Assembly: GCF_003144315.1 (NCBI RefSeq) | Contig: NZ_MPDK01000002.1 | Coordinates: 372,001-436,000 of the forward strand | Direction of reading: 5' to 3' | Length of the DNA stretch: 64,000 bases | Source of the DNA: Sulfoacidibacillus thermotolerans | GTDB taxonomy: Bacteria > Bacillota > Bacilli > Alicyclobacillales > SLC66 | Part shown: positions 16,801 to 19,424 of the stretch, one piece after another | How the letters are laid out: every line of letters starts with the position of its first letter | Position numbering within the stretch: position 1 is the first letter of the stretch | The notes under the pieces: model-generated | What the model was told of the DNA's origin: nothing | The model's database searches: none | What the model saw: the letters and a program-made list of their open reading frames with translations, nothing else | Position numbers and translations under genes: made by a program

Positions 16801-17697
16801 TTATTTAGAAATCACCTGCACTTTGACGTTTTCCATGCCAAATTGATCAGCTAAACTTGCACTTGGCAAAAAAATGTCGATTCGATTCCCCTGAATAGCA
16901 CCACCAATATCATTTGCCGTTGCATAAAATCCTCCAGGCGGAAGTGCTGGATCGGAATATCCACTAATAAAAAGTGTTGAGCCTAGCGGAATCACTGATG
17001 GATCTACTGCAACGTCGCCAAACTGAAGCGGTTGTCCAAAATAATTCACCGCTCCCCATGGACCATTATCTGCGACAGATGCATCATAAGACGTGGCCAG
17101 CATATTGTATGTCTGCGCGGAAGACTGATTTTGTGTTTGTGGTGCAGGTGCAGGTGAAGAAGAGGTAGGAGTCGATGAAGTTGCTGCAGACGCACTGTCA
17201 TTAACACTCGCCGTTTGACTGTCAGATAAAGTGCTTGCAGTTGTCGTAGTCATCGCGAGATTCGAATTGCTCGTGTCATTTGAATTCCACGTCGTTGCCT
17301 CATTACTCCCTAGTGCAATCAGTAGTTTTTGCCCAGGATAAATTAAGTCAGAAGTTAATCCATTTAATTCTTGAATAGAGGCGACACTTGTGTTGTAACG
17401 ACGAGCAATATACCATAACGTATCCCCAGGATCGACGAGATACAAAAAAGGGATTGCCACGACTTCGCCGGGATACAGAATACTATCTCCATTCAAGTGA
17501 TTGACCCGTTCGAAACTTTGCAACCCTACATGAGCCTGTACAGAAATTGAATACGCACTGTCAAGCGGTTGTACCGTGTAGGGTCCAAGCGGAGTCGTCG
17601 CCGCAAAAGCACTCACATGTGACCCCAACAACAGCCCAGCGCATAACAGTGCCGCAGTTGTTTGCTGCACAGCAGAAAATCTAGCCTTTATTCGCAT
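16801..17697 (-). CDS. LysM-LysM-3D domain cell-wall protein under c-di-AMP control
   Basis: A protein of 298 residues. The N-terminal signal peptide ends near AFAA (about residue 33). Two LysM repeats follow (YTVQPLDSAYSISVQAHVG and LVDPGDTLWYIARRYNT, each ending in an LYPGE/IYPGQ segment), then a Ser/Thr-rich linker and a C-terminal 3D domain with DPSVIPLGS, NDIGGAI and IDIFLPS. It binds peptidoglycan and is probably a lytic transglycosylase-like hydrolase. GGGAGGG precedes the ATG. The leader carries a ydaO-type riboswitch, a known arrangement for wall hydrolases. Its own stop is only 44 bases before the peroxiredoxin start, so read-through is possible. Confidence 0.88.
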   Translation of the reverse strand: MRIKARFSAVQQTTAALLCAGLLLGSHVSAFAATTPLGPYTVQPLDSAYSISVQAHVGLQSFERVNHLNGDSILYPGEVVAIPFLYLVDPGDTLWYIARRYNTSVASIQELNGLTSDLIYPGQKLLIALGSNEATTWNSNDTSNSNLAMTTTTASTLSDSQTASVNDSASAATSSTPTSSSPAPAPQTQNQSSAQTYNMLATSYDASVADNGPWGAVNYFGQPLQFGDVAVDPSVIPLGSTLFISGYSDPALPPGGFYATANDIGGAIQGNRIDIFLPSASLADQFGMENVKVQVISK

Positions 17698-17704
17698 AAT
17701 TCCC

Positions 17705-17822
17705 TCCCTGGCCTCCGGAGTTAGCTGACGGGTTCGGGCGAAGGATGCCCGCTCACAAAGATGAGTTCACCCCAAAGCACACGGTTCCTCCGTACACACA
17801 TCGATGTGTGATTCGGCTTATG
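17705..17822 (-). promoter_or_regulatory. cyclic di-AMP riboswitch (ydaO/yuaA class)
   Basis: The minus strand contains the class hallmarks in order: AAGCCGAATC, ACGGAGGAACC, TTGGGGTGAA, GGGCATCCTTCGCCCGAACC and GTCAGCTAACTCCGGAGGC. The closing helix pairs GCC of the 5' end with GGC next to CAGGGAGGGA, the ribosome-binding region of the LysM-3D gene. In this class, c-di-AMP binding turns expression of osmotic and cell-wall genes off. Because the ribosome site lies directly behind the closing helix, control could be translational; no separate terminator hairpin with U-run is visible. Confidence 0.88.
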
Positions 17823-17866
17823 TGATGTCGCGTAGAACTATACACGACATCACCCCGAATTGCCAA
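17822..17866 (-). promoter_or_regulatory. promoter of the riboswitch transcript with a 9-bp inverted repeat around the -10
   Basis: On the minus strand TTGGCA (17866-17861), 18 bases, then TATAGT (17842-17837). The expected start is near 17830. The perfect repeat GTGATGTCG (17822-17830) and CGACATCAC (17844-17852) flanks the -10, so the right arm is probably outside the RNA and the palindrome acts as DNA, as an operator would. Confidence 0.55.
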
Positions 17867-17891
17867 GCTGTAAATCATGCCATGGAGAATC

Positions 17892-19424
17892 TTACCGTTC
17901 CTTTACAACGCGCACGGTCTCAATTGTTGGATCATCTGGTCCTTGTACAGGTAATCCTGCACGTAAATTTTCTTCAATAAATTCTACATTATCTGCGGTT
18001 ACTATTTCACCAGGTAAAAGAATCGGAATCCCTGGGGGATAGACTTTAATTACATCTGCGATAATTCTTCCGATTGCATCTCGTAGCTGTACAACTTCCG
18101 TTTCAGCATAAAAAGCTTCTCTCGGACTCATTGCAAGTACAGGGGTAGAAGGTACAACAATTTGAATTTTATGGTGATGTTGCAGCAATTCCCGATTCGC
18201 AATTTCTGCAATCGCAGAAATTAATGCTGCGATGTTTTCCTCTGTATCGCCAAAAGAAATTACACATAGCACATTGTATAAATCGGATAATTCAACTTCA
18301 ATATTATATTTTTCACGTAGAATGACTTCTACTTCATATCCTGATAACCCAATCTCCGCCACGCGAATCGTAAGTTTCAATGGATCGAGCGCAAATGTCG
18401 CAGAAGAAGCTAAAATTTCTTCACCAAAACAATAGATCCCTGGAATTTCATTCAATCGCCGACGCGCACTCTGCGCCATCGCGATCGCTCGATCGAGCAA
18501 CTCATGCCCACGCGTTGCCAGTTGACGGCGAGCTGCATCCAGTGATGCCAAGAGAATGTAAGAAGTTGACGTGGTCGTAAGCAAAGATAAGATTGAATGT
18601 ACATGCCTCGCGCGCACTAGCCCTTCTTTCACATTCAATACTGAACTTTGTGTAAGGGAGCCTCCTAATTTATGAACACTTGTAGCCGCCAAATCACACC
18701 CAGCTTGCATAGCGGACGGTGGCAATTGCTCATGAAAATGCGTATGCACGCCATGTGCTTCATCGACTAGAACTACGACTCCGCGATCATGTGCGAGTTT
18801 TACAATCGAACGTAAATCTGTTGCTACTCCAAAATATGTCGGATTAATTAGCAAGACCGCTTTTACATTCGGATGGCGCTTTAATCCCTCTGCCACTGAC
18901 TCGACGCGCACACCATGCGCAATTCCTAAGCGTAAGTCCACTTCTGGTTGCAAAAAGAACGGCCTAGCTCCAGATAAAATAATCGCCGATAGGACCGAAG
19001 TATGGATGTTGCGCGGAACGAGAATCTCATCTCCCGGACCTACGACAGACATGATCATTGCCATAATTGCACCACTTGTACCTTGCACGGAAAAGAAAGT
19101 ATAATCTGCGCCGAATGCCTGTGCAGCCAACTTTTGTGCTTGGTCGATAATTCCTGTAGGATGATGCAGGTCATCTAATGGACCAATGTTAATGAGATCG
19201 ATACTCAGCGCTCGCTCACCCATAAATTCCCTGAATTCAGGATCCATCGCGAGTCCAGTTTTATGTCCTGGAATATGAAATTGCAAAGGGCGACGCATTG
19301 CATGCTCACGCAGTGCCGAAAACAACGGGGTCTGAGACTGATCTAACAAAAAATTCACATCCTCACTTCTATGCAAACGATGACTGCTATCACCACGCTT
19401 AAAGCGGTACACATCCTCGCCCAT
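17892..19424 (-). CDS. Orn/Lys/Arg decarboxylase family PLP enzyme
   Basis: A protein of 510 residues of fold-type I. Markers of the short Bacillus-type (SpeA/YaaO) decarboxylases are FHIPGHKTG, FSVQGTSGAIMAMI, VDEAHGVHTHFH (PLP-contacting aspartate and histidine) and ATSVHKLGGSLTQ with the Schiff-base lysine. The C-terminal domain has PPGIPILLPGE. It would decarboxylate arginine, lysine or ornithine for polyamine synthesis or acid resistance; the substrate cannot be read from the sequence. The ATG lacks a strong ribosome site, so the true start may be up to 20 codons inside. Confidence 0.85.
   Translation of the reverse strand: MGEDVYRFKRGDSSHRLHRSEDVNFLLDQSQTPLFSALREHAMRRPLQFHIPGHKTGLAMDPEFREFMGERALSIDLINIGPLDDLHHPTGIIDQAQKLAAQAFGADYTFFSVQGTSGAIMAMIMSVVGPGDEILVPRNIHTSVLSAIILSGARPFFLQPEVDLRLGIAHGVRVESVAEGLKRHPNVKAVLLINPTYFGVATDLRSIVKLAHDRGVVVLVDEAHGVHTHFHEQLPPSAMQAGCDLAATSVHKLGGSLTQSSVLNVKEGLVRARHVHSILSLLTTTSTSYILLASLDAARRQLATRGHELLDRAIAMAQSARRRLNEIPGIYCFGEEILASSATFALDPLKLTIRVAEIGLSGYEVEVILREKYNIEVELSDLYNVLCVISFGDTEENIAALISAIAEIANRELLQHHHKIQIVVPSTPVLAMSPREAFYAETEVVQLRDAIGRIIADVIKVYPPGIPILLPGEIVTADNVEFIEENLRAGLPVQGPDDPTIETVRVVKER

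Follow-up and report, generated by a model that had tools for sequence, protein, structure and literature searches.

A c-di-AMP riboswitch adjoining the ribosome site of a LysM-LysM-3D wall hydrolase gene: anatomy and proposed translational OFF control

In the window (the whole 64-kb stretch of DNA that was analysed, from Sulfoacidibacillus thermotolerans), the gene of an exported LysM-LysM-3D wall hydrolase is preceded by a genuine c-di-AMP riboswitch of a class already known. We propose, with moderate confidence, that this riboswitch forms a minimal translational platform, in which c-di-AMP turns the hydrolase off by stabilising two aptamer helices, P1 and P2, directly beside the Shine-Dalgarno (SD) sequence. 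We infer both the translational level and the OFF direction from the anatomy of the leader, its conservation in orthologues and its likeness to the C. glutamicum nlpC riboswitch. If this proposal is true, synthesis of the hydrolase is under control at the ribosome.

Aptamer, promoter and gene

A ydaO-class riboswitch had been proposed in a first-pass annotation, with the Rfam model as the check, and the model confirms it. The cmscan match to RF00379 (c-di-AMP, ydaO/yuaA) covers window 17828-17695(-) and the full length of the model (1-134) at 83.4 bits (E 6.4e-18), against a gathering threshold of 38 bits. The aptamer at 17828-17695(-) presumably binds c-di-AMP. The same riboswitch is situated before the orthologous gene in 13 family relatives, which makes 14 genomes including this one. 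The gene product was rightly named as a LysM-LysM-3D wall hydrolase; the 298-aa protein of 16801-17697(-) carries an export-like stretch at its N-terminus, two LysM stretches and one 3D domain. A sigma-A-like promoter, TTGGCA-N18-TATAGT, lies at 17866-17837(-), so the RNA start is predicted near 17830, and transcription from this promoter would begin ~14 nt upstream of P1. The features of the locus are as follows.

17869-17885, minus strand: CCATGGCATGATTTACA, a conserved element of 17 bp just upstream of the -35 and a candidate regulator site (alignment of 14 orthologous promoters)
17861-17866, minus strand: -35 hexamer TTGGCA (sequence; position kept in congeners)
17837-17842, minus strand: -10 hexamer TATAGT (kept in both congeners and many orthologues)
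17822-17853, no strand: perfect 9-bp inverted repeat with a spacer of 14 around the -10, of doubtful function (sequence searches, orthologue comparison)
17695-17828, minus strand: riboswitch aptamer RF00379 (cmscan, 83.4 bits)
17815-17817, minus strand: P1 5' strand GCC (Rfam alignment; pairs in 14/14 orthologues, one compensatory change)
17788-17792, minus strand: P2 5' strand CGGAG (Rfam alignment; pairs in 14/14 orthologues, one compensatory change)
17716-17720, minus strand: P2 3' strand CUCCG, of which CUCC is complementary to GGAG of the SD (Rfam alignment and orthologue comparison)
17711-17713, minus strand: P1 3' strand GGC, ending 3 nt before the SD core (Rfam alignment and orthologues)
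17702-17708, minus strand: SD GGGAGGG (sequence; the 3-nt gap to P1 never varies among the 14 orthologues)
16801-17697, minus strand: LysM-LysM-3D exported wall-hydrolase-like protein, 298 aa (Pfam LysM PF01476, two stretches, and 3D PF06725)

The two helices are well supported by comparison. All cells (100%) of P1 and P2 are paired in the 14 orthologues, with a compensatory change in two pairs, one per helix, whereas slid controls reach at most 54% of cells paired.

Expression platform

The SD at 17708-17702 is situated immediately beside the P1 3' strand at 17713-17711, so that the ribosome site does adjoin the closing helix, as had been noted from the sequence. The SD core reads GGAGG (in one orthologue GGGGG) and starts exactly 3 nt after the P1 3' strand in each of the 14 orthologues; the distance from SD to start codon varies among them from ~5 to 10 nt. 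The P2 3' strand is separated from the ATG by 18 nt with no terminator-like site in them, and between aptamer and start codon there is neither an intrinsic terminator nor space for one. Among the orthologues a T-run between aptamer core and start codon is likewise absent, with the exception of G017, where Ts occur between SD and ATG. Because the SD follows P1 by 3 nt and no room is left for a terminator, control is most likely exerted at the level of translation, the level that the first-pass annotation had also suggested.

The proposed mechanism is simple. At high c-di-AMP, the ligand would close P1 and P2, and the helix packed against the SD would make ribosome initiation poor and lower the amount of hydrolase. 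At low c-di-AMP, P1 would open and leave the purine-rich GGAGGCCAGGGAGGG accessible to the 30S subunit. With 14 natural variants of fixed geometry at hand, this mechanism is easy to test.

A conserved box upstream of the promoter

The alignment of the 14 orthologous promoters reveals three conserved stretches upstream of the RNA, namely the -10, the -35 and the box CCATGGCATGATTTACA at 17885-17869. This raises the possibility, which we hold tentatively, that transcription is regulated via the 17-bp box by an activator or a response regulator, with the riboswitch acting below it; such an arrangement is compatible with translational OFF control, which it would supplement at the DNA level. In the 14 orthologues, few columns upstream of the RNA are as well conserved as those of the box and the -35, which surpass the left arm of the promoter palindrome discussed below, and in three genomes of the genus the orthologous promoters are the sole places that match the box with at most one mismatch. 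The same restriction speaks against a regulon, and the box was rejected as a regulon element. Moreover, the 3' end of the upstream gene is close by.

WalR sites are direct repeats of TGTWAH-like hexamers with an 11-nt period. The TGTAAA on the plus strand at 17869-17874 resembles a WalR half-site, but no second half is seen by eye at that period. If a DNA-binding regulator does act on this promoter, the box at 17869-17885 is a better candidate site for it than the palindrome.

Direction of the switch

We consider it likelier that c-di-AMP turns the hydrolase gene off than on. The main rival, the same riboswitch working in the ON direction, which appears rather doubtful, would use the P2 3' strand as an anti-SD: without ligand, its CUCC would pair with GGAG of the SD (4 bp, 9-nt loop) and block the ribosome, and c-di-AMP would capture CUCC in P2 and free the SD. 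The CUCC/GGAG complementarity and the 9-nt loop are indeed kept in 14/14 orthologues; nevertheless, since every SD looks like a complement of CCUCC, such pairing is to be expected in part. In one orthologue (G007), three bases have changed together (from A-U-A to G-C-G), one in the 5' strand of P2, one in its 3' strand and one in the SD, but this is a single change event, and 28 of 500 shuffles reach it. RNA folding with 12 nt of coding sequence points towards ON, with the SD more accessible once the aptamer is folded in 13 of the 14 orthologues, whereas the result is mixed with 33 nt (8 up, 6 down). Folding was rejected as a predictor of direction, as its outcome depends on the length of coding sequence included. 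The CUCC/GGAG hairpin is also weak, and the experimentally studied members, B. subtilis ydaO and C. glutamicum nlpC, are OFF switches (PMC9960051).

Two classes of platform in the family and order

RF00379 sites, mostly the better-scoring ones, were taken from 18 genomes of the family plus additional ones within the order and class, and platform length was measured as the distance of the start codon after the aptamer core. A reading frame could be assigned at 122 sites. Their platforms separate into 47 that measure 11-33 nt and 75 that measure at least 63 nt, with no overlap between the ranges. By a simple hydrophobicity rule, unedited, an export signal is present behind 39 of the 47 short platforms and 7 of the 75 long ones (Fisher p 7e-17, a value that overstates the case since the sites are related by descent). 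The figures become 41/41 and 7/81 after an editing done once the data had been seen, in which six short-class frames judged spurious were moved to the long class and two signal peptides missed by the rule were accepted. T-runs are found in 51 of the 75 long platforms against 4 of the 47 short ones, although a longer stretch has more chance of containing one.

The gene products differ accordingly in the representatives submitted to Pfam. All ten from short platforms are wall hydrolases (NlpC/P60, SLT, Hydrolase_2). Among the ten from long platforms, eight are transporters, DapB, Usp, a radical SAM protein or ribosomal protein L19, and two are without a match; the L19 frame lies 396 nt from its riboswitch and is perhaps not the gene under its control. 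By platform length and predicted product, the family and order sites thus fall into two classes, short platforms before exported wall hydrolases and long, often U-rich platforms before transporters and cytosolic proteins. This family-wide pattern suggests that one messenger is read at two levels per cell, by termination of the transcript in the case of osmolyte and ion transporters and by ribosome access in that of secreted wall hydrolases.

A more elaborate version assigns the two platforms in this order by protein destination: exported wall hydrolases would have aptamers abutting the SD, and transporters and cytosolic proteins would have long leaders of the terminator type. It further lets the P2 3' strand of the short type double as anti-SD, so that the ligand would switch hydrolase translation on and transporters off. 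We regard this combination as unlikely and retain OFF control for the hydrolase.

This genome was found to carry two further c-di-AMP riboswitches only. One (C45:41506-41640, L074) has a short platform followed by a gene for an NlpC/P60 protein. The other (C47:20752-20886, L024) has a long platform of 130 nt and then a gene whose 161-aa product has no match in Pfam; this protein recurs behind riboswitches across the family.

The promoter palindrome

The inverted repeat GTGATGTCG-N14-CGACATCAC has its arms at 17822-17830 and 17845-17853, around the -10 TATAGT. The earlier description of a 9-bp inverted repeat stood as to the arms, which are perfect, and failed as to the spacer, which is 14 rather than 13; the search with an N13 spacer accordingly gave no match. 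The window contains 50 perfect 9-bp inverted repeats with a gap of at most 20, where six first-order Markov sequences gave 5-13. It also contains two 32-bp palindromes in which 13 or more of the 16 positions match; the Markov sequences gave 0-3 of these. With 50 such 9-bp repeats, finding one somewhere in 64 kb is ordinary, and the position at a promoter alone deserves attention.

When up to three mismatches are allowed, the 9+9 pattern occurs in the whole genome (2.87 Mb) at this site and one other place, and the exact 7-bp core with a spacer of 12-20 occurs a single time. Orthologous promoters were scanned automatically at plus-strand loci and judged by eye at the remaining ones. The congener G002 has TGATGTC-N15-GACATCA, the spacer being N16 in this genome; the arms are degenerate or broken in the congener G001, and no comparable repeat was seen in the 11 other orthologous promoters. 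Two-mismatch matches are equally frequent in this genome (15), in G001 (17), which lacks the site, and in G002 (17). The palindrome was rejected as a regulon operator, with one copy in the genome and its 7-bp core kept in 1 of the 13 relatives that have the riboswitch-gene pair. On these searches it is an element without a regulon and without conservation at the level of the family.

The first-pass annotation had named as refuting its idea a repeat that is absent elsewhere and unconserved in relatives; by that standard these results largely refute the palindrome as the site of a regulator forming a second layer of control. Repression of transcription by a dimeric protein bound to the 32-bp palindrome over the -10 now seems very unlikely: perfect 9-bp arms do flank a good -10, and G002 keeps the 7-bp core at the same promoter though the spacer around it has diverged, but the single genomic copy, the broken or missing arms in the other relatives, the unlike arm spacing in the two species that have the palindrome, the near-matches in G001 and the abundance of such repeats in the window all count against it. 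A DNA-operator layer is unsupported, the repeat being unique in the genome and mostly unconserved among orthologous promoters. Most likely the palindrome is incidental or a genus-level remnant, and the riboswitch model does not need it; the persistence of the core in G002 leaves a small chance of a role within the genus. We also note that the 7-mer ATGTCGT occurs in the -35/-10 spacer of NlpC/P60 riboswitch promoters of the genus (L074, L077, L105) and at the upstream arm of the palindrome (17845-17853), there at another distance from the -10; this may be chance.

Neighbouring genes

An Orn/Lys/Arg decarboxylase gene, 17892-19424(-), is situated directly upstream of the riboswitch promoter. 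In most of the orthologous loci the conserved codons of its C-terminus can still be made out ahead of the riboswitch, which makes the two genes syntenic throughout the family.

The hydrolase gene is followed by a gene for a Bcp/PrxQ-like peroxiredoxin, 16754-16289(-), with an in-frame TGA at ~16624-16622 where the peroxidatic cysteine is expected (FYPKDMTPG-TGA-TQEA). Most orthologous loci share this TGA; in L037, L038, L039 and L045 the codon is TGC or TGT. A tRNA-Sec is encoded in this genome (L234:1501-1597). The gene is likely to encode a selenocysteine peroxiredoxin, as judged from its sequence, and not to be broken. The Rfam search for an RNA element around it gave subthreshold matches only. 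A strong 18-bp terminator-like hairpin at 16287-16246(-), after the peroxiredoxin gene, is the probable end of a hydrolase-peroxiredoxin operon.

Comparison with known systems

B. subtilis YocH is a LysM-LysM-3D wall hydrolase of the WalR regulon. The present protein is like YocH in domain order and as a wall hydrolase, with the difference that YocH is known for its control by WalR; its gene is not known to be preceded by a riboswitch.

The B. subtilis ydaO/kimA riboswitch shares the aptamer class RF00379 with the present one. It controls a potassium importer gene through a transcriptional terminator (cited in PMC9960051), in contrast to the locus studied here, which has no terminator and encodes a wall protein. 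As in the present case, ydaO leaders of Streptomyces (S. coelicolor, S. lividans; PMC8079986) precede secreted wall hydrolases. The S. lividans paper describes those of S. coelicolor as acting on translation (PMC8079986), and a canonical terminator was reported lacking in an S. coelicolor example (cited in PMC9960051); the system differs in that the level of action in S. coelicolor is reported as both transcriptional and translational.

The C. glutamicum nlpC riboswitch has no terminator, and raised c-di-AMP lowers the reporter protein but not the transcript (PMC9960051). Within the literature found, it is the sole c-di-AMP riboswitch with reporter evidence for translation, which confines such evidence to Actinobacteria. 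The two systems have in common a ydaO-type aptamer, the lack of a terminator, an exported wall hydrolase gene and the CTCC/GGAG complementarity, the last of which was pointed out by the C. glutamicum authors for their RBS (PMC9960051). They differ in that C. glutamicum is an Actinobacterium, its gene encodes an NlpC/P60 protein where a LysM-3D protein is encoded here, and reporters were used there and sequence comparison here. The resemblance in anatomy to nlpC favours translational OFF control of the hydrolase.
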